A stretch of DNA of 24,453 nt from a virus. The position numbers and the translations under genes are program-made. The stretch covers positions 1 to 24,453 of the IMG/VR virus record IMGVR_UViG_3300004369_000140, one strand, 5' to 3'. Positions 8,886 through 21,128 of the stretch are shown here, one piece after another; positions within the stretch are counted from its first letter, which is position 1; every line of letters begins with the position of its first letter. The notes below the pieces were generated by a model that worked only from the letters and a program-made list of their open reading frames with translations, had not been told where the DNA came from and made no database searches.

Positions 8886-8914
8886 AGTATGGCATGAAAA
8901 AGGGGGTTCGTCAA
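8886..8914 (-). promoter_or_regulatory. Sigma70 promoter TTGACG-N17-CATACT inside a terminator
   Basis: The minus strand has TTGACG (8914-8909), 17 bases, then CATACT (8891-8886), preceded by TGC, which makes an extended -10. The -35 lies in the loop and inner stem of the terminator hairpin at 8901-8920. RNA would start near 8880 and the helicase ATG is at 8863. The initial sequence GTATTCACAT resembles those after the -10 boxes at 2870 and 1523. Confidence 0.8.
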
Positions 8915-8920
8915 CCCCCT
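8897..8920 (-). terminator. Rho-independent terminator closing the tail-adhesin module
   Basis: The minus strand reads AGGGGGTT (8920-8913), loop GACG, AACCCCCT (8908-8901), then T residues to 8897. The eight-base-pair stem is perfect. It stands 8 bases after the stop of the gene at 8928-9869, the last gene of the tail-adhesin chain, and separates it from the helicase unit. Confidence 0.92.
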
Positions 8921-8927
8921 GTGACAC

Positions 8928-9869
8928 TTATAAAATTGGATTTCCGTCCTCGTCGAAGTGGTTAATAACTCTACGCGGAACCTGTATTTCTTCGAAGTCT
9001 TGATACTTTGGAATGTGAGCAATAATATCCACTAATTCAGATCCTCTGAATACATGCTCCAGCCTAACTTGCGCGTCTCTAGTTGTATCAGAAACAAGAG
9101 CATAGATATCATCAATTTGTGCTGCAGATAGAATCTCATACATCATGTATCCAGCAAGATGCTTTCTTAATGACTGTCTGAAGGATACAGTCTTAATGTT
9201 GTCTTTCTTGAGTGGTTCAGTGATACGATTTGAATAAAAATCTTTCTTTGGAATCTCCGAAATGGTAGTAGGGTACTTGAATCTGGACATCCACGAGATC
9301 TCATTGTTTCTGCGGACAGTAACAACACCCTTACAATAGTTTGGTGCATTACCAGCATACCACTCTAACTTTTCGAGCAGTGGATTATTATAATGCGACA
9401 AATTGTAGTATCTATCTACAACTGTACAACCAGTAATATATCCATGGGCATCATGATCATGACCGATAAATGCAGTGTTTCCCTTCCTATCAGTCTTCAC
9501 AACTTTATCCAATTCATCATACAAATCTCTATCGGATGATGAGTATGTCTGCATAATATAATCACCACGATAAGCTCTCCAACTGGAGAATCTCATCCTG
9601 AACTTTGTTCTATATGACACAGGTTCTATGCCATTATGATAGATGCCAAAGAGTTTTTCTTCTTCTTTGATTGCCTCTACATCAGCAATAGATGGTCTGT
9701 ACTTAAATACAACACCAAGTTGATTTCTTACACCAACTTCCATGTCTGGTTTGTATTGATCATCATACAGTGGTGTATATCTATATGGCATTTCAGAATA
9801 GTCAGCGAGTCTCTGACCACTCACAAGACTATATCTTTCTGCTACTGTATAGTTGTCGGAGAATATCAT
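8928..9869 (-). CDS. Unknown protein at the end of the tail-adhesin module
   Basis: This 313-residue protein starts MIFSDNYTVAERYSLVSGQR and ends NHFDEDGNPIL. It is rich in Tyr, Asp and Arg (YRYTPLYDDQYKPDMEVGVR; GHDHDAHGYITG at about 137-148), with no transmembrane segment or signal peptide. The HDHDAH cluster could bind metal. Its ATG overlaps the upstream TGA as ATGA (9869-9866), so it is made together with the 115-residue protein. Position and late-module membership suggest a virion or tail-assembly protein. I do not recognise a family. Confidence 0.8.
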   Translation of the reverse strand: MIFSDNYTVAERYSLVSGQRLADYSEMPYRYTPLYDDQYKPDMEVGVRNQLGVVFKYRPSIADVEAIKEEEKLFGIYHNGIEPVSYRTKFRMRFSSWRAYRGDYIMQTYSSSDRDLYDELDKVVKTDRKGNTAFIGHDHDAHGYITGCTVVDRYYNLSHYNNPLLEKLEWYAGNAPNYCKGVVTVRRNNEISWMSRFKYPTTISEIPKKDFYSNRITEPLKKDNIKTVSFRQSLRKHLAGYMMYEILSAAQIDDIYALVSDTTRDAQVRLEHVFRGSELVDIIAHIPKYQDFEEIQVPRRVINHFDEDGNPIL

Positions 9870-10213
9870 TCGTTGTCCAGGATAACTTGTCCTTCATCAT
9901 TATACAGAGCGAAGAAGATGTACTGTTCTTTTGGTGTTCCAGCTTGTTGTGTTGGGAAATTATCCTGCAAGAAATTCATAATATCACCCATCTCTTCTAG
10001 TTCCAAAACTACATGCTCACTATCTTTGAATAGAACCATATAGTCTACTGGAAGCATATCATTATACAGTGAGATAGATGCATTGATAGCATCTACATCA
10101 GTGCTATTGTTCCAACCATAGACACGGAAGTAAACTAGTGGCTTACCAGCGAGTGCAGCATATCTTCCGATAAATGTCTGCAAGTCATAAAGTTGATACT
10201 CTGTATTATCCAT
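9866..10213 (-). CDS. Unknown acidic protein in the tail-adhesin module
   Basis: This 115-residue protein begins MDNTEYQLYDLQTFIGRYAA and contains KPLVYFRVYGWNNSTDVDAI, a hydrophobic VDYMVLFKDSEHVVLELEEM stretch and IFFALYNDEGQVILDNE at the end. The pattern of strands and one or two helices suggests a small alpha/beta domain. Its start overlaps the upstream oxygenase gene by 8 bases and its stop overlaps the next ATG as ATGA. It could be a partner of the 313-residue protein; function unknown. Confidence 0.8.
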   Translation of the reverse strand: MDNTEYQLYDLQTFIGRYAALAGKPLVYFRVYGWNNSTDVDAINASISLYNDMLPVDYMVLFKDSEHVVLELEEMGDIMNFLQDNFPTQQAGTPKEQYIFFALYNDEGQVILDNE

Positions 10214-10745
10214 TTGTTCGTAATTTCCAAGCGATAGTGACTCTCAAAGATTTAAATGCTCTAGTAAGTGGTGCTGCACAGTGACGAATCAAACCAGGAA
10301 ATAATACTGCTTTGTTTCCATTTGGATAAACACCATGTACTTCACCAGAGTTCACATAAAAGTTTGTCGCTCCTCCCCAGTTTACATCCCATACAGGATT
10401 TACATAAAAAAGTAGAGTGCGTCCACTGTCATCATGTGCATCAACATGAATAGATCCATCTTGTCCAAATGTATGACCATTAGCATACACATGATATAAC
10501 TCAAAAGATTTATTCAGCTTCTGCTGTATCTTATTTAGAAGATGATCTGTGAAGAATGTGTCTTCAACAAAGTCTATCTTCCAAAATGGTGTGGTGGTGT
10601 GAAAATCTGGATGTTCTCTACCTAAAGATGTGTGTCCATACTTCCATTGCGACCCATATCCAGTCTTCTCTTTGATGATACGATAGTCATCTTCATCAAA
10701 GAAGTCATGATACTGAATGATGTCTGTCTGTTTATAGTTGTGCAT
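10206..10745 (-). CDS. 2OG-Fe(II) oxygenase, HxD type
   Basis: The 179-residue protein has the ligand set of the double-stranded beta-helix oxygenases: His100 and Asp102 (GSIHVDAHDDSGRT), distal His155 (FPGLIRHCAAPLTR) and Arg168 (SLRVTIAWKL), which would bind the 2-oxoglutarate carboxylate. NPVWDVNWGGATNFY is the usual loop after the second strand. It should oxidise a substrate with O2 and 2-oxoglutarate in the cytoplasm. Related phage proteins lie beside tail-fibre genes in cyanophages; their substrate is unknown, but hydroxylation of a fibre residue is one possibility. It overlaps the upstream oxygenase by 14 bases. Confidence 0.9.
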   Translation of the reverse strand: MHNYKQTDIIQYHDFFDEDDYRIIKEKTGYGSQWKYGHTSLGREHPDFHTTTPFWKIDFVEDTFFTDHLLNKIQQKLNKSFELYHVYANGHTFGQDGSIHVDAHDDSGRTLLFYVNPVWDVNWGGATNFYVNSGEVHGVYPNGNKAVLFPGLIRHCAAPLTRAFKSLRVTIAWKLRTNG

Positions 10746-11376
10746 ATTCTCTAATCATATTGATTCTCACAGATTCTAGTTTCTCTAATTGTGAGTGTGT
10801 GATATCATTTGCAACATCATTGATAGCATGTTTCATATCAATGATAAGTTCACGCATACGACTGTCTGTTATCAGACTTTCTATCCAACCAACAATAACT
10901 TTACGATCACCAGAAATCACTGGATTAACTTTATGCCATAAACCAGTATTATACATCACTATTGTGCCCGCTTTCTCTTTTAAAGAAATTTCTTTTGGAC
11001 CAACCTTGATAATAAGTTCACCACCTTCATATTCACTAGGATCATTCAGAAAACAAGTGAAGCTGTAGTGAGGAGCAATCCCAGCAATGGGAAATGCATC
11101 TAGGTGATAATCATAAAAATGACCTGACTTATACCATAGAAAGTATGGTTGTCCAACTCTCTTAATTAGATAATCTTCCATCTGTGGACGCAACTTATCA
11201 TAAAAATAGTTGCACTTATCATCATGATCTGGGTGATCATAATTCATTGCAAGATTCTTCTTTACTTCAGATCTTGGATTACTATCAGACCCACAATGAA
11301 AGATACTATCTTTCCAATCTTGTGTCAAATATCTAATATCACCACCATCAAGTACATTATCAATTAACCAAATCAT
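10732..11376 (-). CDS. 2OG-Fe(II) oxygenase, PKHD-hydroxylase-like
   Basis: I start it at the ATG at 11376 (214 residues, MIWLIDNVLDGGDIRYLTQD), which has GAGGA 9 bases upstream and overlaps the upstream stop by 17 bases; the open frame reaches 11427. Motifs: YHLDAFPI with His91 and Asp93, EYEGGELIIKVGP at 116-128, distal His148 in TGLWHKVNPVISGDRK and Arg158 in the same segment. This order, with EGGEL and GLWHxVxPVxxGxR, is typical of prolyl 4-hydroxylase/PKHD-type proteins. A helical C-terminal extension (residues about 170-214) may bind a partner. Substrate unknown. Confidence 0.92.
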   Translation of the reverse strand: MIWLIDNVLDGGDIRYLTQDWKDSIFHCGSDSNPRSEVKKNLAMNYDHPDHDDKCNYFYDKLRPQMEDYLIKRVGQPYFLWYKSGHFYDYHLDAFPIAGIAPHYSFTCFLNDPSEYEGGELIIKVGPKEISLKEKAGTIVMYNTGLWHKVNPVISGDRKVIVGWIESLITDSRMRELIIDMKHAINDVANDITHSQLEKLESVRINMIREYAQL

Positions 11377-12304
11377 TAATATCCTCTTCAGTATAAATTT
11401 GCGTGTAATCAATACCCGCTTCAACAAAGTCTTCGAGTCTCAATAGTTTCATCATCTCTTTAACTTCACTAGTAACTACTTTCTTACTATTGATGTAGTT
11501 CTGTCTCATTGTGGAGATGTTTGTAAGTCTAGATTCAATCAAGTCTCTAGAAGAATCTGTATCTCTTGCAACCCATTGATCATCTGTTGAGAGATATTCC
11601 ACAGGATTTCCATCATTATCTAAACCATCAGGATACATTTCCCTGTAAAACTTTGGATCGATAGGGAACTTAAATGTCTTGATTGCTCTAAAGAAATCAA
11701 GTGGTGTTGGATAATCTGTTGGCTCGCCAAACTTTAGATTTCTAATCTCTTGTCTGTATCTAATCCACAGTGCTCTTTCACCATCATATTTCTCTTCTAC
11801 ATCAGGACTCATACGCCAGTCTGTGGCAGCGAGAATCGCATTCTTTTCTTGCATTCTCTTCAACCAAGTATTTTCAAAGAATAGATATTCTTCGTCAATT
11901 TTGGAAAGACGTGTCTCTACATCATAGATTCTTGCTGTAGTTTGAGCTTCAATGAAAGTTCTTACTTTCTTCTCTAGTTCAATAACCTGATCTTCGGTGT
12001 AACCAGTGAAAGTATATGTGCTGTATACTTGCTGCTGTTGAGCAAAATCAAACTTCTTCTTCTTTCTTTGGCAATAGAGATAATTGTCACTGTAAAAGAA
12101 TAGAGCTTGTAACTGGTCATTCTCTGTGTGCCAGAACTCACCGAGTGCTTCTTCTTTAAAGCGATCCAACATCTCACCAGAAATAGAGAAAGTGGGAACA
12201 TATTCTCTACCATCTGGCAACAACACTCTGGCACTAGTGTTGTTAATAATTTTGTTTTGAAAGTCAACTTCTAACGTTGCGCTTCTAGCGAGTTGTGTTG
12301 TCAT
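11360..12304 (-). CDS. Putative tail-fibre assembly chaperone
   Basis: This 314-residue protein begins MTTQLARSATLEVDFQNKII. Residues about 154-191 (KNAILAATDWRMSPDV, then ALWIRYRQEIRNLKFGEP) match the hallmark of the phage tail assembly chaperone family: LLAxSDWxxxPD, a charged gap, then WxxYRQxLRxL. Before it lie a beta-rich N-terminus (1-100) and a coiled-coil-like helix (105-150, DQVIELEKKVRTFIEAQTTA). After it comes a Pro-rich TDYPTPLDF part and a helical C-terminus. In other phages this module helps fibres fold or is carried on the fibre tip. It lies between two oxygenase genes in the fibre cluster and overlaps the upstream stop as TAATG. Confidence 0.75.
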   Translation of the reverse strand: MTTQLARSATLEVDFQNKIINNTSARVLLPDGREYVPTFSISGEMLDRFKEEALGEFWHTENDQLQALFFYSDNYLYCQRKKKKFDFAQQQQVYSTYTFTGYTEDQVIELEKKVRTFIEAQTTARIYDVETRLSKIDEEYLFFENTWLKRMQEKNAILAATDWRMSPDVEEKYDGERALWIRYRQEIRNLKFGEPTDYPTPLDFFRAIKTFKFPIDPKFYREMYPDGLDNDGNPVEYLSTDDQWVARDTDSSRDLIESRLTNISTMRQNYINSKKVVTSEVKEMMKLLRLEDFVEAGIDYTQIYTEEDINDLVN

Positions 12305-12963
12305 TAATTTGACCCAGCTTTAATGTACCATCCTGTCACTATATATTTAGTTTGCTCTCCCATAACAAGATTTCCTTTGTGTACATGAGTCATGCCAGCA
12401 GGAAAAATAACTACAGTTCCTTTTTGCGGTTTGATTCTACGCTTTTGATACAAAAACTCCGTCTCGCCACCATCATCAATGTCGTTAAGATAAATCATCC
12501 ACGTAAGTTCTCTCTGTGCATAAGCAGCAGATGCGTTTTCATAATGCCATAGATGATATCCGCCGCCAGGTTCAGTCTTTTGAAACTTGATGTCGATTGA
12601 TGTCAGTGGCACAGTCTTCAACTGCGAGAACTTACTGACATAATGTTGGGCACACGATTTGAGAAACTGATTGATCTGCGTAGACCACTTCTCACTACCA
12701 TAATTAACTAAAAAAGCAGTATCATCTCTTTTAATATTGCCACCATACATTTCAGATCCTTCCATGATGTCAACCATATCACTGATAGTATGTCCAGATA
12801 CCTCATTAATAAATGATTCGCCATATGCTACGAGTTGATCACAAAATGCATCTGGTACAAATTTCTCCCAAACACCAATGAAATCATCAAATGACGATTT
12901 AGTCATTTTTTCATTCATCATCAATTCAAGTGGCCTGTAAGGCGCAAGTTCATTCTTTGCCAT
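12304..12963 (-). CDS. 2OG-Fe(II) oxygenase, HxE type
   Basis: This 219-residue protein begins MAKNELAPYRPLELMMNEKM. The oxygenase core is at about 120-215: GGGYHLWHYENASA with His140 and Glu142 as an HxE pair in place of HxD, IYLNDIDDGGETEF at 157-170, FPAGMTHVHKGNLV with distal His193 or His195, and Lys207 in KYIVTGWYIK as the probable 2-oxoglutarate contact. I recall similar GGGYHxWHxE proteins in phages. The residues indicate an active Fe(II) dioxygenase; the substrate is not known. It is the first gene below the 1044-residue adhesin, 6 bases after its stop. Confidence 0.9.
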   Translation of the reverse strand: MAKNELAPYRPLELMMNEKMTKSSFDDFIGVWEKFVPDAFCDQLVAYGESFINEVSGHTISDMVDIMEGSEMYGGNIKRDDTAFLVNYGSEKWSTQINQFLKSCAQHYVSKFSQLKTVPLTSIDIKFQKTEPGGGYHLWHYENASAAYAQRELTWMIYLNDIDDGGETEFLYQKRRIKPQKGTVVIFPAGMTHVHKGNLVMGEQTKYIVTGWYIKAGSN

Positions 12964-12969
12964 GAAAAA

Positions 12970-15900
12970 TTAATATGCTTTAATTATATATTTAACCTTG
13001 TGGAATTCTGGTAGAAGTTCTACCTTTCTGTTGGGAGAGAACGCAACGTTTGGAATTGGTTTCTTGATTGATGTATTAAGAGTAAATGTTCCCACATTCA
13101 GCTCCATACCGACATCACCTTGGTTAAAGGTTACGTTTACAGTTGTTGCTGCAGAACCTAATCCTTCTCTAGCACTACCCCATCCACTAACATTACCATA
13201 AGTATAGTCAGTAGTCAAGTCAGTAACTGGTTGCAATGTAATCAAGTGAGAATGAGACTCTGTAACACCAGTATCGCCATCAAGAATTGGTGGTGTATAT
13301 GCATCCACTCTAACAGTTTTGGGATTAGTGTCAATAACAGCAGTAACTTTTCTAGCACCATTGCCACCAACAACACCATATTCGGATAAACTACTGTCGC
13401 TAGCGACTGTAAAGAAATAGTCATTAGAAACAACACTATATGGTGATGGCCACCAAGTTTCAGCAACTAGTGTTTGTGTTGTTCTCATGTTAGCATCACC
13501 GCCTTGGTTTGCAAGACCAGGACCACCATTAAGACCAGCATTGTATGCTTTAGTATTAATATCACTAATCAACTGCGTGACAATCGTATTGAGATCATCA
13601 ACGCCATCAATTTCATCCCATTCATTCTGGAAGTTTGGTGCATAATTTTGCAGTGCTCCCAACCACAAGTCAACAATAGTTTGTGTATCAGTCTTTGCAA
13701 CACCATCAGGAAAATCGTTTAGACCATTAAGTCTAGCAGCATTAAGTCCGACACTACCATCGTTAGATAGTCTAGCAGAACCAGGCAATGATGCCATACC
13801 CCTGTCGCGCCACTCAATTAATGGATCTCCACTAACACCATCAACCAATCCAGTAACATACAAGTGAGTGTGTGGAGGAACTGACACTAGTGTGTCGAGT
13901 AGAGGACCAATCAATGCTGTTACACTACCAGTAATAGTAAAATCAATATCAGCCGTAATATCACCATCAAATACAGTTTTTACTGTACCCAGTGAGAAGA
14001 AATTACTCGTAGTTCCAGTAGTTCCACCTGCATCACCTAGAATCTGCTCATAAGGATTATCACCAGAAACGTCCACATCATCAACATACCACCAGCCACC
14101 AGTTTCTCCAGGATCGTAGATACTTCCACCACCTTCAAGTGGTGGGAAAGCAGAAGATGCTCTGTTACCATCAACAACACCAGTACCAACTAGTTTTCTA
14201 TTTCTTAAATCAGGAACTCTAAACTGTCCTGTATATGTTTTGTTTTGAGCGTCATATGTTACACCTGTTCCACCATATGTTTCTTCAATGACTTCATACA
14301 AATCAGGATAATCTGCAGCGTCATAAAGTTCACCATCACACTCCAAATAACCTGGGAATCTAGATGTAAGACTACCATCTAGTGTACCATAAGAACCATT
14401 AGGTTGCTTGAGAACAGAGACAACCGTACCAATAGAATGTCCATCCTCTTTATTCTCAATGATATCACCATTGCTATCTACCAGTGCATTCTTCTTACTA
14501 TACCACGCACCTTTTAGATCTGGTGGTGGTGGAGCAACAGCATAGTTACTTACTGTCCAAATAAATTGGTTTGGGTTTCCTGTACCTACCGTAACAGTTG
14601 TAGTTACTTGACCAGATAGATTAGGATCAGTGTCAATAAAGACACGGAATGAACTATTTACGGATGGATCAAATGTTACTGTAGATGATGTAGGAGTAGC
14701 AAAATCAACAGAGATTAGAGCACCATTTGTAGCAGAGATTGTAATTGGTCTATTGATTCCACTAACAGATACAATAGAGCTTACAACTTGAGTGCTTGGT
14801 ACTTGGTTTGTAAGGTTTGCTGGTGCTATCCAATCAGCATCAGTATCGGGTCCAGTGTTAGTAACAATCAACCACGGAGCAATAGTTCTACCACCAACTC
14901 TGATAGTAGTAGATACAGAACCGCCAAATGTAGCAGATGATCTGTTATAGAGAACGATCTTATCACCATTGTTTACTTTGGTTGGAAATACCCCAATAGA
15001 ACTCTCACCACCTTCTGCATATTGAATTTTAATTCTAGGTTCTGTTCCATCAGTTGTTACAAGAGTAACATCAACTTCAGTGCCAGTTCCTAATCCAGAA
15101 ATACCACTAGGTAATGGCGCTGGTTCAGATCCAATCAAAGCATCTTCCAATACATTATTCTTATCTTGGAACGAGAAGTTATCTGGTGTAGTAGATGGGA
15201 AGTTACCTGTAGTAATTGACCAGCTAGATCCATCTGGTTCATCACCAATACCAAGTGATGTAGCCGACTGTGCCCCAGCAGTATTTTCAGAAAGTAATCG
15301 AAGTTGTAGATACTGACCGTTATTGATTGTTGGATAATTAGGACCAATAACCTGTTCAAATGTTATACCAGATAATATATTATATCCATCACTGTTGGTA
15401 AAAAATGTATTTGTATCAGAAATACCAACATACAAGTCTGTGTCTGATGCAACAATCTGTGCTGTATCATTCAATCCTTGAATTTGTAAGATATTACTGT
15501 AAATATCAGTATTCAACTGAACATTTGTAAGATCAGTAAAATTAGGAAATGGTTCTGGAATATTTGGTGGTGATACCGCAGTACCAATCGTCCATCTTTC
15601 TACTCTAGCTCCGATAGAAAGATCAGCAAACGTTGTTAATCCTTGTGATACGTTTGATCTTAAGCGTAGTTGAACTTCATCAGTATTTGTTACTGTAATA
15701 TTTCCATTAGGAATCAGCCAATCACCAAATACCGTTTCTCCTTGACTTACACGTTTAACTCTGATGGAAAAATTATCAACTACTGCCGAAAGACTTCCAG
15801 TCAGTGTTACTGAAGCTTCTGTGGTTGGTGTTAGACCCGATACTGTAATAATATCTTCTCCAGGTCTTGTTCCATCACCATACACATACATTGTGTCTAG

Positions 15901-16104
15901 ATCTGCATCTACAAGAGGTGTAAATGGGAATGGATCAGGAGCAAAATCCTCGGGAATGGTAGTAATATACCAGATTGTTTGCTGTTCACCAATCTGAATG
16001 GTGACACTTTGAGTAGTATTCCACTGGGAGGGCGCTTTAAACTTGAAGCGTACTGTTTGTCCCTCGCTTACATATACTGGTGTATTAGAAAAAGAATATG
16101 TCAT
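12970..16104 (-). CDS. Large tail adhesin: Ig-like repeats plus tail-collar domain
   Basis: This 1044-residue protein starts MTYSFSNTPVYVSEGQTVRF. Residues 1 to about 520 hold four or five tandem Ig-like repeats of roughly 110 residues (recurring pattern near TDEVQLRLRSN, GQYLQLRLLSEN, GDKIVLYNRSS and VNSSFRVFIDT, each followed by a Trp-containing strand). After PPPPDLKG comes a tail-collar domain (about 560-650: GYLECDGELYDAADYPDLYE, then FRVPDLRNRKLVG). The C-terminal 400 residues contain two HxH motifs (PPHTHLY and ESHSHLI) and end VKYIIKAY. It should be a trimeric receptor-binding fibre. A late promoter lies 40 bases upstream. Confidence 0.88.
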   Translation of the reverse strand: MTYSFSNTPVYVSEGQTVRFKFKAPSQWNTTQSVTIQIGEQQTIWYITTIPEDFAPDPFPFTPLVDADLDTMYVYGDGTRPGEDIITVSGLTPTTEASVTLTGSLSAVVDNFSIRVKRVSQGETVFGDWLIPNGNITVTNTDEVQLRLRSNVSQGLTTFADLSIGARVERWTIGTAVSPPNIPEPFPNFTDLTNVQLNTDIYSNILQIQGLNDTAQIVASDTDLYVGISDTNTFFTNSDGYNILSGITFEQVIGPNYPTINNGQYLQLRLLSENTAGAQSATSLGIGDEPDGSSWSITTGNFPSTTPDNFSFQDKNNVLEDALIGSEPAPLPSGISGLGTGTEVDVTLVTTDGTEPRIKIQYAEGGESSIGVFPTKVNNGDKIVLYNRSSATFGGSVSTTIRVGGRTIAPWLIVTNTGPDTDADWIAPANLTNQVPSTQVVSSIVSVSGINRPITISATNGALISVDFATPTSSTVTFDPSVNSSFRVFIDTDPNLSGQVTTTVTVGTGNPNQFIWTVSNYAVAPPPPDLKGAWYSKKNALVDSNGDIIENKEDGHSIGTVVSVLKQPNGSYGTLDGSLTSRFPGYLECDGELYDAADYPDLYEVIEETYGGTGVTYDAQNKTYTGQFRVPDLRNRKLVGTGVVDGNRASSAFPPLEGGGSIYDPGETGGWWYVDDVDVSGDNPYEQILGDAGGTTGTTSNFFSLGTVKTVFDGDITADIDFTITGSVTALIGPLLDTLVSVPPHTHLYVTGLVDGVSGDPLIEWRDRGMASLPGSARLSNDGSVGLNAARLNGLNDFPDGVAKTDTQTIVDLWLGALQNYAPNFQNEWDEIDGVDDLNTIVTQLISDINTKAYNAGLNGGPGLANQGGDANMRTTQTLVAETWWPSPYSVVSNDYFFTVASDSSLSEYGVVGGNGARKVTAVIDTNPKTVRVDAYTPPILDGDTGVTESHSHLITLQPVTDLTTDYTYGNVSGWGSAREGLGSAATTVNVTFNQGDVGMELNVGTFTLNTSIKKPIPNVAFSPNRKVELLPEFHKVKYIIKAY

Positions 16105-16156: not shown

Positions 16157-17866
16157 CTATAATTGACGCACATCCACAAAGTTTCCATCGTTATCTATTT
16201 CTACTTGAATAGGATAGTCAGCCCTAATTTCTACTGGAATATCAATATTGTCAATTACAATTTGCTCCGTAGTAATTTCTACATCAGGAGTAACAATTGG
16301 TTCTTCGTTCTTGAAAGTATCTTCAGATTCAGGAATATCAACAGCGTCGGGCATCTGATCAATATACGGATAAATCGAAATACTATCAGTGTCCTGTAAG
16401 TTACCAAGACCAACACCTTTCAAGTTAAAATTAAAATTTGATGGTCCGCGATTAGTCCATGTTGGTGCATATGCATATGTTGATGTAGATCTATCAAGAT
16501 CAAATGTCTCGTTTGTTACAACACCATCTAGGTCTGTAGCAATCACTTCTAGTTGATAACTTACATCAGAATTGACTTCCGAATGAGACAGAGTTATAAA
16601 AGAGTCAGCATAATTCACTGTTAGTGGACCACTAATCGATACTTCTGGAGGTTGCCATACAGTCAAAGTAATTTCTTCTGTGTCTTGTCCACCAAGACCT
16701 TCGGCTACAGCAGTATATGTTGTGGTTACAGTTGGCGATACATTGCTGAATGATGTTAAATTTGTTGATCCAATACCAGGAGTGATGTTCATCGTAGTGG
16801 CATCACCAGTAGTTGACCATCTCAATACTGTGCCGCTGCCGCGAGGGATGGCATCATCATCCAAAGTAAGAGTAATTTCGGGTGGAATATAAACCGTATG
16901 CGAAAAAGTTGCGGTGTCTGTACCACCACTAAAGTATAAAGTTAAAGTCCAGTTGCCTGTTTGTTGTGGTTGTACAGTAAGCTGGGTAGTTGTTGATGAG
17001 AGATTGTAAATTGATCCATCTGGACTTTCTAATCTAATACTATTAATAAATTGTTGATATGTAGTAGTCCAAGAAAAAGTTACATTTTCACCAAGAATAA
17101 TTGCAGAATCAGATGCCGCGAATGATGTAATTTCTGGTGTTGCAAGATCGTAAGTGATACTTACATATCCATTAGCATAATTAGATCCATTACCGCTAAC
17201 ATATGTTGTATATCCTGTTCTATAGAAGCTTCCACCTCCTCCCCCACCACCAGATGGGTATCTACCAGCGCGGTCATCAGCACCTTCACGACCACCGCCA
17301 CCACCAGAAGCGCCGCCGCCTCCGCCACCGCCACCGCCGCCATCGTATCCTTGAGATCTACCAGTTCCACCATTAGAAATACTTCCAGGTGAAGTAGACC
17401 AACCACCAGCCGATCCTCCGTTGCCGCCTCTTAACCAAGAATCGGGGTGAGATCCACCACCCGCGCCACCGCCGCCGCCTGCGAGAATAATATATGTGCC
17501 AGCGATGCTATCATACACACCAGTAGCGCCGCCGCCGCCTCCTCCACCGCCAGAGCACCCCTGCGGACCAGTTCTGCCACCACCCCCGCCACTAGCGACA
17601 GGAGAACTACCACCACCTCCAGCTCCACTATTTGATACACACCCAAATCCATTTCCACCTTGACTGCCTACCAGAAGAGTGAGTGTTCTTGGTGTACTAT
17701 CAGGTAAACTGAATGTGCCCTTTCTTCCTGGTCCGCGTGTGCCCCCAGGAGCAGTATCATTTCCACCGTTGCCACCTTGAGCACCAGCAACAGTGATGCG
17801 TATATTAATCCATCTGTCATTAATACTTACATTGCTAGTTCCAGTGCCATAATTAATAGTTGCCAT
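16157..17866 (-). CDS. Glycine-rich/Ig-like tail adhesin, paralogue A
   Basis: This 569-residue protein has three parts. Residues 1-26 form an N-terminal strand pair. Residues 27-239 are a glycine-rich domain with runs of up to ten Gly and repeated GATGVYDS/YIILAGGGGGAG, typical of phage glycine-rich adhesin domains. Residues about 245-495 are three Ig-like domains, one with ITPGIGSTNLTSFSNVSPT. Residues about 498-569 are the C-terminal signature (QMPDAVDIPESEDTFKNEEP to DYPIQVEIDNDGNFVDVRQL). The GC-rich glycine codons contrast with the AT-rich surroundings. It starts at a TAATG overlap with paralogue B. Likely a receptor-binding tail protein. Confidence 0.85.
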   Translation of the reverse strand: MATINYGTGTSNVSINDRWINIRITVAGAQGGNGGNDTAPGGTRGPGRKGTFSLPDSTPRTLTLLVGSQGGNGFGCVSNSGAGGGGSSPVASGGGGGRTGPQGCSGGGGGGGGATGVYDSIAGTYIILAGGGGGAGGGSHPDSWLRGGNGGSAGGWSTSPGSISNGGTGRSQGYDGGGGGGGGGGASGGGGGREGADDRAGRYPSGGGGGGGSFYRTGYTTYVSGNGSNYANGYVSITYDLATPEITSFAASDSAIILGENVTFSWTTTYQQFINSIRLESPDGSIYNLSSTTTQLTVQPQQTGNWTLTLYFSGGTDTATFSHTVYIPPEITLTLDDDAIPRGSGTVLRWSTTGDATTMNITPGIGSTNLTSFSNVSPTVTTTYTAVAEGLGGQDTEEITLTVWQPPEVSISGPLTVNYADSFITLSHSEVNSDVSYQLEVIATDLDGVVTNETFDLDRSTSTYAYAPTWTNRGPSNFNFNLKGVGLGNLQDTDSISIYPYIDQMPDAVDIPESEDTFKNEEPIVTPDVEITTEQIVIDNIDIPVEIRADYPIQVEIDNDGNFVDVRQL

Positions 17867-19545
17867 TAGATTTGCTCCACATCTCTATAAATCCCATCAT
17901 TATCTATCTCGACCTGAATAGGATAGTCTGCTTTGATTTTAACTGGGACATCAATATCATTTATAAGCAATTTAACTGTAGTTACTTCCTGATCTGGAGA
18001 AATAACAGGATCTTCGTTCTTAATTGCATCATTATTTTCAGGAACATCTAAAGCATCAGGCATCCTATCAATATTAATATTGACAATGATGTCATCCTCA
18101 TCATTCAATCCACCAGCACCAATAGCATATAATTTATATTCGATAAAATTAGGACCAAAGTCATTGTAAGGCACAACAACAGTTTCTTCACCATTAAATG
18201 ATTCTGAAGGTCCATACTCTTCTACTATCTCATAAGATGTTCCAGGATTATCTTCGTAATGATACTTTGCTAGAAGCTGCAGCGAGGTAGTTGAATTTGT
18301 TGCCTCAATAGATAGTGTTATTGGTTGACCATAATCCACACTCACAGGACCAGTTAAACTTACTGTAGGTGGTTGTAGCACAGTAATAGTAACTTGATCC
18401 GAATCCTGACCAGCAAGAGGATGTGAAGCAGTAAGAGTATAAGTTGTATCTTGTGTTGGAGATACTTGTACTGGACCACCACTAATGTTCACTTCACCAA
18501 CTCCAGGTGTCATTTGAGCGGTAGAAGCATCTCCTGTTATAGTCCAACTTAAATTTACAGACTCACCCAAAATAATAGTATTATTTGTTGCATCAGAAAA
18601 AAGATTTACATCAGGAGGAATAATAACATCAATCGATGCTGGCACACTAGCCGTGCCTCCAGGACCATTTACAATCAAATTGTATGATGTGTCTTGAGTA
18701 GGAGATATTGTTATCGAGTCTTGTCTTGCTTGATTTGTTAATATAGGATCAACAGTGACTGTATTAATAGCACCAGTAGCAGACCAAGACATCACGGTAT
18801 TGTCCCCTAAAAGTATTTGAGATGGTTCGAGAGTAAAATACTGAATGGTTGGTGGAGCATAATCAAAATTTAAAATGTAATATCCGTTATTAAAGTTACC
18901 ATATCCACTATTTGTAGTCCAATCATAGTAACTGCTATTGCTATACCAAGCCGAGTTGCCACCAATACCAGAATATCCATTATAGGTTTGAGCACCACCT
19001 AATCCACCAGCGGTGCCAATGTTTGATCCACCACCGCCACCGCCACGGTGTCCAGCACCAGCATTTTGCCCACTACGACCAGAAAAACCTCCAGTTGTTC
19101 CGCCGCCACCAATACCACGACCAGCTGAATAATATCCAGAATATCCAGTATCACCATATCTACCAGCTCCACCTCCACCACCAACAATAACAGTATATCT
19201 ACCTAATCCAGAATCATAAACACCAGAGGCACCTCCACCTCCGCCGCCTGATCTATATCCCTGTCCACCAGAAGCAATAGGTGACCATCCACCAGAACCT
19301 CCAGGTATGTTACCATCATACTTCGTAGAACCTTTAGATCCAAGGTAAAAGGTTAATCTATAATCAGTTGTCCTTGTTTTTAATCTAAAATCTCCAGCTC
19401 TACCAAATCCCCCTCTAACATATCCCCAGCTTGGATTGGCAGAATCACCGCCGCCAGCAGCCGCAATAGTAAATCTAACATTAGTAGAATATGCTGGTAC
19501 AGTTACATTATACGTTCCAGGACTATAGGATGAATACTGTGGCAT
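17866..19545 (-). CDS. Glycine-rich/Ig-like tail adhesin, paralogue B
   Basis: A 559-residue protein beginning MPQYSSYSPGTYNVTVPAYS. Residues 5-30 form the strand pair (TYNVTVPAYSTNVRFTIAAA), residues 30-229 the glycine-rich domain with GASGVYDSGLGRYTVIVGGG and a His-containing GAGHRGGGGGG run. Residues about 230-485 are Ig-like domains (including WTITGDASTAQMTPGVGEVN), and 490-559 the C-terminal signature, ending DYPIQVEIDNDGIYRDVEQI. The signature is the most diverged of the three (LLINDIDVPVKIKADYP). Stop and start are coupled to both neighbours (TGATG above, TAATG below). Predicted role is host recognition. Confidence 0.85.
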   Translation of the reverse strand: MPQYSSYSPGTYNVTVPAYSTNVRFTIAAAGGGDSANPSWGYVRGGFGRAGDFRLKTRTTDYRLTFYLGSKGSTKYDGNIPGGSGGWSPIASGGQGYRSGGGGGGASGVYDSGLGRYTVIVGGGGGAGRYGDTGYSGYYSAGRGIGGGGTTGGFSGRSGQNAGAGHRGGGGGGSNIGTAGGLGGAQTYNGYSGIGGNSAWYSNSSYYDWTTNSGYGNFNNGYYILNFDYAPPTIQYFTLEPSQILLGDNTVMSWSATGAINTVTVDPILTNQARQDSITISPTQDTSYNLIVNGPGGTASVPASIDVIIPPDVNLFSDATNNTIILGESVNLSWTITGDASTAQMTPGVGEVNISGGPVQVSPTQDTTYTLTASHPLAGQDSDQVTITVLQPPTVSLTGPVSVDYGQPITLSIEATNSTTSLQLLAKYHYEDNPGTSYEIVEEYGPSESFNGEETVVVPYNDFGPNFIEYKLYAIGAGGLNDEDDIIVNINIDRMPDALDVPENNDAIKNEDPVISPDQEVTTVKLLINDIDVPVKIKADYPIQVEIDNDGIYRDVEQI

Positions 19546-21128
19546 CAGATTTGCCTCACATCTTGCCAGTTATCACTATTATCTATATCAACTTGAACTG
19601 GATAATCAGATTTTATTTCTACTGGAATATCAATATCATTAACTACAATTTGTTGCGTTGTAACCTCAACGTCAGGTGTCACGACGGGTTCCTCATTTTT
19701 AAAAGTATCGTCCGTCTCTGGAATATCTACAGTATCTGGTAACTGGTCAATGATAATAGGAACAATTAATGTATCACTTGCCGTTAAAGATCCATACCCA
19801 TCCACCGTAAACAATATTTCTACTCTTTCTGGTCCCAGAGGAAGAGGTAATGTACCATCATATGCAATGCTCACATCATATGCTTGAATGTTTATTTCAT
19901 CTCCCGTACTATTAGGGAGAGCCACAGAACTTTGGGCAGCAGATGTGCCGTCAGTAAAGTAATAAGTCGCGACGTAACTTATTCCACCTTCAGCATTAGT
20001 GGCTTCTATACTTACAGGTATATCTTGTCCCCAAAGCACATTTATAGGACCAGAAACACTTATAGTTGGTGGCTGCAATACAGTAATTTCAACTTCAGCA
20101 GAACCTGTTCCTCCAAGTCCAGATGCAACACCAGTATATAATGTAGTTATCGATGGAGATACTTGCGTACTGCCAGTTAAATTTGACTGCCCTATACCAG
20201 GACTTATCGAAAATGTACTTGCATCACCAGTAACAGTCCAACTAATATTAGCGTTATTACCTCTTATAATAGTAGAATTATCAACAGTAAAATTTACAAC
20301 AGGTTTTATATAAACATATACAGTAACAGTATCAGTTCGAGTATATGCTGGATTTGATGTTGTTAATCTAAAAATAGAACTTTCTGTAGGTGATACAACA
20401 TATGGACTACCCTGATTTCTATTTACTTGACCATAACTCTGCACAAGATTATTCGAAAGATCTAACCTATCTAAAGTTTCTGATGTGCTATCTCCACCGC
20501 CAGTTGACCACGTTAATCTTACAGTACCATCACTACCATCAGATCCATCTGCTCTAAAAGATAATGGAGTTGCCGTAATGCTAGGAGTTGGTGGATCATA
20601 TGTACATACACTGATGTATACAGCACCACTTTGACCCATTCTACATGAGCCAGTACCACCCTGTAATCCACCAGAACCCACAGTCCAATTCACATATTGA
20701 CCAGGAATAGCTCCACTACTACCTCTCGCTACTGTTGATCTTGAGGCACCTCCTCCACCACCTCCATAAGATTGACTAGGAGATCTCCACTGTCCAGCTC
20801 CACCGTACCCATAAGACCCATATCCAGGTCTTGCGCGAGCAGTATTTCCCCCAGAGCTATTATAAAATCCGCTCTGACCATAAGAATAGTTACCATAACC
20901 ACCGCTACCACCAGAATATATTCCTCCTGGTCCGCCCCCGCCAGCATATGGTCCGCCAGCAGAATAGTAAGTAGCTCCACCAGAAGTAGGAGATCTACCA
21001 AAATCATATCCTACATTAGGGCGAGCTCCACCACCGCCACCACCAACAGAAAAATAACAAATACATTTGGTGGCGGTTGGAACATAATATCCTGTACTAT
21101 TCGTATAGATATAGCATAAACGTCCCAT
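19545..21128 (-). CDS. Glycine-rich/Ig-like tail adhesin, paralogue C
   Basis: A 527-residue protein beginning MGRLCYIYTNSTGYYVPTAT. The N-terminus contains three Cys (Cys5, Cys22, Cys24) not seen in the other two. The glycine-rich domain (29-175) is shorter and rich in Tyr and Ser (GSYGYGGAGQWRSPSQSYGG), with SGAVYISVCTYDPP at its end. Residues about 180-455 are Ig-like (WTVTGDASTFSISPGIGQSN), and 458-527 the C-terminal signature closest to paralogue A, ending VQVDIDNSDNWQDVRQI. The start lies 3 bases after the stop of the collar protein gene at 21132. Confidence 0.85.
   Translation of the reverse strand: MGRLCYIYTNSTGYYVPTATKCICYFSVGGGGGGARPNVGYDFGRSPTSGGATYYSAGGPYAGGGGPGGIYSGGSGGYGNYSYGQSGFYNSSGGNTARARPGYGSYGYGGAGQWRSPSQSYGGGGGGASRSTVARGSSGAIPGQYVNWTVGSGGLQGGTGSCRMGQSGAVYISVCTYDPPTPSITATPLSFRADGSDGSDGTVRLTWSTGGGDSTSETLDRLDLSNNLVQSYGQVNRNQGSPYVVSPTESSIFRLTTSNPAYTRTDTVTVYVYIKPVVNFTVDNSTIIRGNNANISWTVTGDASTFSISPGIGQSNLTGSTQVSPSITTLYTGVASGLGGTGSAEVEITVLQPPTISVSGPINVLWGQDIPVSIEATNAEGGISYVATYYFTDGTSAAQSSVALPNSTGDEINIQAYDVSIAYDGTLPLPLGPERVEILFTVDGYGSLTASDTLIVPIIIDQLPDTVDIPETDDTFKNEEPVVTPDVEVTTQQIVVNDIDIPVEIKSDYPVQVDIDNSDNWQDVRQI

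Follow-up and report, generated by a model that had tools for sequence, protein, structure and literature searches.

Marine T4-like cyanophages carry from a handful to two dozen 2-oxoglutarate (2OG) oxygenases, which are usually called metabolic (PMC3037559, PMC9602691) and which were earlier proposed to act on 2OG and NtcA or on DNA (PMC3037559; for DNA also PMC9146016). Among the auxiliary metabolic genes counted in this way (PMC3037559, PMC9602691) are the three 2OG-Fe(II) oxygenases discussed here, named OxA, OxB and OxC, which are encoded in a 24.4-kb virus record (IMG/VR record IMGVR_UViG_3300004369_000140, 24,453 nucleotides; hereafter, the window). The closest isolates to the window are Kyanoviridae, T4-like Synechococcus phages, with S-CAM3 foremost. 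In the literature searched, the cyanophage genes have neither a link to fibres or chaperones nor an allelic pair among them, whereas position-specific lineages are shown here: OxA lies between a tail fibre gene and a gene of a tail assembly chaperone family, and OxB and OxC follow. The chaperone gene and the three oxygenases are already annotated individually; no paper linking a 2OG oxygenase to fibre assembly, or describing such an allelic pair, was found in a literature whose coverage was incomplete. The reading favoured here, with a probability of roughly one half, is that OxA hydroxylates the fibre polypeptide during its chaperone-assisted folding, as part of a late fibre operon.

All the features of the block lie on the minus strand. 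OxA (12304-12963, 219 residues, T4-GC240), OxB (10732-11376, 214 residues, T4-GC28) and OxC (10206-10745, 179 residues, T4-GC166) exceed the 27-bit cut-off of PF13640 (2OG-FeII_Oxy_3), with 52.8, 48.9 and 31.1 bits and E-values of 8.1e-14, 1.4e-12 (over 10732-11382) and 4.6e-7, respectively, and all three matches above the cut-off were recovered by an independent six-frame search. For OxB, alignment with orthologues makes the ATG at 11376, which gives the 214 residues, a likelier start than the TTG at 11427. In 12 isolate orthologue sets and in wider metagenomic sets, the ligand residues are invariant: H140-Y-E142, H195 and K206 in 31 sequences of OxA, H91-x-D93, H148 and R158 in 29 of OxB, and H100-x-D102, H155 and R162/R168 in 21 of OxC. 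Compared with the metagenomic contig L008, dN/dS is 0.03 for OxA, 0.05 for the chaperone gene, 0.06 for OxC and 0.18 for OxB, which indicates strong purifying selection. Because the ligands are invariant and synonymous changes dominate, all three enzymes appear to be maintained in active form. The double-stranded beta-helix fold is present in the predicted structure of OxA, and homology suggests it for OxB and OxC. A tree built from 76 cyanophage oxygenases places the OxA-position sequences in one clade and the OxB-position sequences in another, each with 99% support; those of OxC likewise form one clade, except for a single P-SSM2 sequence. An earlier reading of this DNA from its letters alone (the sequence-only reading) had described one HxE-type, one PKHD-like HxD-type and a second HxD-type oxygenase with apparently intact ligands and had called them non-redundant. 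This description is confirmed throughout, as the invariance of the ligands is not a matter of chance and the three copies are separate old lineages.

By sequence profile and predicted model, the nearest solved structures of the three oxygenases are protein hydroxylases. The AlphaFold2 model of OxA (pTM 0.84) finds the viral collagen prolyl hydroxylase 5c5t (PBCV-1 vCPH) as its top Foldseek match (2.6e-8), and its best matches are protein prolyl hydroxylases, which also include PHD2 and the prolyl 4-hydroxylases (P4Hs) of Pseudomonas and Bacillus. The sequence profile, which is independent of the fold search, retrieves P4H alone, at about 1e-5. OxA is thus alike in fold and profile to the collagen-type P4Hs (PBCV-1 vCPH, 5c5t; Bacillus anthracis P4H, 3itq/5hv0), from which it differs in having only about 20% identity, and it shares with them a lysine at the 2OG-binding position. 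This residue, the invariant Lys206, stands about 10 residues past the distal histidine, where collagen-type P4Hs have their lysine ligand of 2OG, and is taken here to be the equivalent of that lysine.

The relatives of OxB and OxC are of a different kind. The OxB profile aligns over positions 1-215 to positions 20-243 of the PKHD hydroxylase 3dkq (5.5e-40), and also matches PiuC 9ghl (3.8e-35). The resemblance of OxB to PiuC, YbiX and Sbal_3634 (9ghl, 9qn1 and 3dkq) covers the entire length, down to the helical tail at the C terminus, and extends to the same HxD...H...R residues, although OxB is phage-borne in a fibre operon and the tail is absent in two orthologues (S-CAM4 and ACG-2014e). Since OxB from the window (120 bits) and that from S-PM2 (142 bits) both fall below the curated NCBIfam cut-off for the PKHD equivalog (143 bits), OxB is regarded as a divergent PKHD relative and not as an equivalog. 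For OxC, the profile gives weak matches to the prolyl hydroxylases OGFOD1 and PHD2/EGLN1 in the surroundings of the HxD motif; the E-values range from 1e-3 to 0.04, and OxC differs from both in being a short single-domain protein.

That OxB and OxC act on a small molecule, a glycan or a nucleic acid, with OxA alone being related to the fibre, is considered unlikely. OxC is without a close solved relative (1e-3 at best) and has a match to the NCBI 2OG family FlmC that falls below the cut-off (67.5 against 240 bits), and both genes are dispensable and exchanged together, as described below, all of which would suit such a role. Against it stands the full-length alignment of OxB with PKHD-type hydroxylases. 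This family is usually assigned to protein modification; to our knowledge, the substrates of PiuC are not settled. No link between FlmC and oxygenases was found in the literature searched. Repair or modification of DNA by AlkB-like enzymes, a published suggestion (PMC3037559, PMC9146016) that is echoed in the name of PHROG 274, is very improbable for these proteins, which lack any AlkB or pyrimidine-dimer-glycosylase domain, lie in a late fibre block and have protein hydroxylases as their nearest structures. The public name of OxC, 'DNA endonuclease V', is wrong; an identity with T4 endonuclease V was rejected, there being no pyrimidine-dimer glycosylase domain in OxC. This name (DenV) is a propagated misname in cyanophage records and in PHROG 274, whose proteins are 2OG-Fe(II) oxygenases: OxC and two other proteins annotated as DenV (S-SSM7 SSSM7_124; ACG-2014i gp025; L182:16960-17514, L185:5427-5927) contain 2OG oxygenase-type domains alone.

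The genes that surround the oxygenases form a compact unit. The minus-strand order is three Gly-rich adhesin-like virion proteins, the fibre, OxA, the chaperone-family protein, OxB, OxC, T4-GC742 and T4-GC743. The fibre gene (12970-16104) encodes a short-tail-fibre-like protein of 1044 residues with a collar domain (T4-GC740 / PHROG 4924; PHROG 4924 at E=0 and 1275 bits, Pfam Collar at 1.3e-9) and is separated from OxA by 6 bp, and from OxA through T4-GC743 every gene overlaps its successor. The four genes from OxA to OxC are therefore all present where the sequence-only reading had placed them, with the overlapping stops and starts that it described from OxA onward, and its statement that the oxygenases bracket the chaperone gene holds as well, with one oxygenase before it and two after. 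A gap of 52 bp precedes the fibre gene and contains the T4-type late-promoter motif CATAAATA (16153-16146, minus strand), the sole ATAAATA in the whole window, where 5.4 would be expected by shuffling. Ten of 11 isolates have the pattern [AC]TAAATA 33 to 42 bases ahead of the ATG of the fibre gene. By analogy with the T4 consensus and T4 biology, CATAAATA is probably the late promoter of the fibre block. Two internal [AC]TAAATA sites, at 12351 (before the chaperone gene) and 10539 (within OxC), are conserved, yet they are accounted for by the 'TKYI' and 'LLNK' codons and were not counted as promoters. A terminator-like hairpin with a T-run (8901-8920, minus strand; an 8-bp stem with five G-C pairs and a T tail) lies directly 3' of T4-GC743; it is a weak signal, as such sites occur near chance frequency in the region. 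A late operon that makes and finishes a tail fibre is the best explanation of the block from 16153 to 8901, as far as its sequence indicates.

The neighbourhood is conserved among related phages. The order fibre-OxA-chaperone-OxB-OxC was found in 11 marine T4-like cyanophage isolate genomes (S-CAM3, S-PM2, S-CAM1, S-CAM4, Syn1, S-RIM32, ACG-2014i, ACG-2014e, S-H9-2, Sf-CH11 and S-RSM4), with S-RSM4 differing by one additional gene within the cassette and by a divergent fibre. Among 16 isolates searched, a full-length homologue of the fibre is present in exactly the 10 with the standard cassette, S-RSM4 being excluded. Metagenomic relatives of OxA were collected from 105 contigs, which form 34 clusters at 90% OxA identity; in these loci, fetched by similarity to cassette genes and hence related by descent, the chaperone gene is next after OxA in all 34 clusters, OxB comes after the chaperone gene in 30 and OxC is present in 25. 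The 11 cassette genomes contain 98 2OG oxygenases, 53 of them at most 5 kb from the fibre block (5.7 would be expected under uniform placement), and after removal of the three cassette genes there are still 20 of 65 within this distance, against 3.8 expected. Fifteen oxygenases of these genomes precede the giant fibre gene, and several of these belong to a separate lineage. The lineage immediately before that gene (e.g., S-PM2 165307-165888) makes up a distinct clade with members in five genomes.

Outside the standard cassette, the association of oxygenase and chaperone recurs. A match to the chaperone was found in 13 of the 16 isolates, and an oxygenase adjoins it in all 13, including P-SSM2 and S-SSM7, which have other fibre types and in which, with 22-23 oxygenases per genome, such an adjacency would arise by chance in about 17% of cases each. 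A different virus (L148:9088-12506) provides an independent case, with three adjacent oxygenases (one HxE-type and OxA-like, one OxB-like), a Gly/Pro-rich protein of 309 residues and a PF16778 chaperone (5.8e-15). The Gly/Pro-rich protein of this virus is perhaps the best place to seek hydroxyproline in a phage adhesin. Syn9 (NC_008296) has no match to the chaperone; at 37-45 kb it carries an array of about eight 2OG oxygenases, a few genes past two genes for tail fibre assembly and a pair of tryptophan halogenases.

The chaperone-family gene itself (11360-12304) encodes a protein of 314 residues (T4-GC741) whose match to PHROG 4697, named 'tail assembly chaperone', has an E-value of 1.4e-99, and the gene lies downstream of the fibre region in all the isolates and clusters inspected. 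In PF16778 (phage tail assembly chaperone) the protein from the window scores 19.1 bits, below the cut-off of 26.6, and four of 12 orthologues match, at best with 2.5e-13. It is a conserved 'DWR.LPD....W...R' block that matches PF16778 in several orthologues and in P-SSM2, S-SSM7 and L148. The PF16778 domain has 60 residues, whereas the protein from the window is far longer and also includes beta domains and a long helix, which are matched within its own family only. Its profile matches 2kz6 at 7e-5, and its predicted model has no fold match in the PDB at E < 0.001.

Although the sequence-only reading had treated the three enzymes as one equivalent set, they do not behave as such. Contigs L011 and L008 share 99.9% identity over 3570 bp that comprise the 3' end of the fibre gene, OxA and the chaperone gene, with OxB and OxC being only 45% and 44% identical, so that the OxB and OxC alleles differ although the adjacent 3' ends of the fibre are 100% identical. 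Contig L006 carries the same foreign OxB and OxC as L011, with matching flanks on both sides. The identity of L006 and L011 to the window is about 95% outside the unit and drops to 33-70% inside it, with sharp edges; the break points, near 11365 at the stop of the chaperone gene and near 10250 at the end of OxC, delimit an exchangeable unit at 10250-11365 on the minus strand. A chimera produced by assembly is an unlikely source of the swap, as L006 and L011, which derive from separate metagenomes, share OxB (100%) and OxC (99%), and the flanks of L006 match on both sides. Both genes are missing together in four of the 34 clusters. Pairwise similarities are most closely coupled between OxA and the chaperone (r = 0.92) and between OxB and OxC (0.91), and less so between OxA and OxB (0.77) or OxC (0.79). 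From allele swap, joint loss and coupled similarity, it is concluded that the locus comprises a core of fibre, OxA and chaperone and, distinct from it, an exchangeable allelic unit of two genes, OxB and OxC. In two further contigs (L012 and L013), OxB alone is divergent (68%), with OxA at 98% and OxC at 95%, which indicates that OxB may vary without OxC.

These observations restrict the possible substrates. Since the fibre 3' end remains constant while the alleles change, OxB and OxC are unlikely to be matched in sequence to the last 650 residues of the fibre, and a simple model in which all three enzymes share a substrate in the neighbouring fibre was rejected. The partial correlations of OxB and OxC with the adhesin or the fibre, allowing for OxA, are modest (0.28-0.49) and not decisive. 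The proposal of the sequence-only reading that the oxygenases act in fibre maturation is thus retained in part: it is supported by the compactness of the unit, which includes the fibre and is preceded by a late-promoter motif, by the excess of oxygenases near the fibre block, by the constant adjacency of OxA and chaperone and by the protein-hydroxylase neighbours, and it is weakened for OxB and OxC, which are not matched to the fibre end. The Gly-rich domains, which the same reading had suggested as targets, are poor candidates for prolyl hydroxylation; with 10, 2 and 8 prolines in 222, 183 and 162 residues, those of the adhesins contain too few to be the main target. Between the window and L008/L009, the second and third adhesins (17866-21128) share only 35-47% identity, the remaining region being 92-100% identical, which points to hypervariable adhesin exchange.

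In the mechanism proposed, OxA, as a P4H-like enzyme, would hydroxylate the newly made fibre polypeptide late in infection while the chaperone holds it, drawing on the 2OG, iron and oxygen of the host, with Lys206 binding 2OG as in collagen-type P4Hs. A candidate site is a proline hinge that is conserved ahead of the collar domain ('YAV.P.PP...G.WYSKK', at about residues 520-540), present in 11 of 12 fibre sequences. Two further protein hydroxylases, OxB and OxC, would form an allelic pair, for which a different and variable protein target, either another adhesin or a host protein, is favoured over the conserved C-terminal part of the fibre.

Several points weigh against a prolyl hydroxylation of the fibre by OxA. 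Its metal motif is HxE in all 31 sequences, whereas the P4Hs that it resembles have HxD; the D315E (HxE) variant of PHD2 with a bound metal (4uwd) indicates that HxE is able to form a metal site. The fold ranking is biased, as the PDB is rich in PHD2 entries, and the hydroxylation of the fibre is a prediction. The chaperone function of the 314-residue protein is suggested by its membership of PHROG 4697 and PF16778. The 11 cassette genomes share descent, so that their synteny does not amount to 11 independent events, and 45 of their 98 oxygenases lie away from the fibre block. The sister clade of OxA is found by talC, DUF680 and hli, not by fibres, and genes similar to OxA and OxB also occur by gp23 and uvsW, from which it follows that the wider enzyme family of OxA is not fibre-specific. 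The sequence-only reading had held that oxygenases as frequent away from fibre genes as near them would speak against it, and the outcome is divided between the marked excess near the fibre block and the large share found elsewhere, the sister clade of OxA included.

The same facts bear on a serious rival, which has an appreciable if minor chance of being right: the oxygenases may modify host proteins late in infection, such as translation factors or envelope proteins, the fibre operon being a convenient conserved slot. The P4H of Pseudomonas putida solved with EF-Tu (4iw3/4j25) is among the fold matches of OxA, the swapping of OxB and OxC alleles beside an identical fibre is what a host-facing factor would show, and similar genes are known at non-fibre places; yet a mere slot would not predict that OxA and the chaperone are never apart in the 34 clusters, or that such pairs recur in other fibre contexts. 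It is quite improbable, by comparison, that the three serve as auxiliary metabolic genes, consuming or sensing 2OG so as to steer the nitrogen and NtcA state of the host, as was proposed for cyanophage 2OG oxygenases generally (PMC3037559; repeated in PMC9602691). The burning of 2OG needs neither three conserved lineages at fixed positions nor fibre-linked late expression, and it leaves unexplained the chaperone linkage and the swapping of two enzymes only. Hydroxylation of the fibre by OxA remains the preferred reading.

Downstream of OxC, the block continues with two conserved genes on the minus strand, T4-GC742 (9866-10213; PHROG 4883, 3e-47), which overlaps OxC, and T4-GC743 (8928-9869; PHROG 4851, 3.1e-47), the last gene of the block. 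Both are conserved in position, and their linkage to the cassette is nearly as tight as that of the enzymes.

A broader, two-layer system may also be envisaged, in which OxA and the chaperone would be obligatory partners in a prolyl hydroxylation coupled to the folding of the fibre, with OxB and OxC as a swappable pair that alters the chemistry of receptor-binding or host proteins, and in which related phages would diversify via their modifying enzymes and not via the fibre sequence; as a whole, this extension is doubtful. The searched literature contained nothing relevant on the hydroxylation of phage fibres. If true, such hydroxylation would thus be a form of virion maturation not reported there, and the division of three fixed-position enzymes into a chaperone-bound one and a swappable pair already raises specific questions on the oxygenases of cyanophages.

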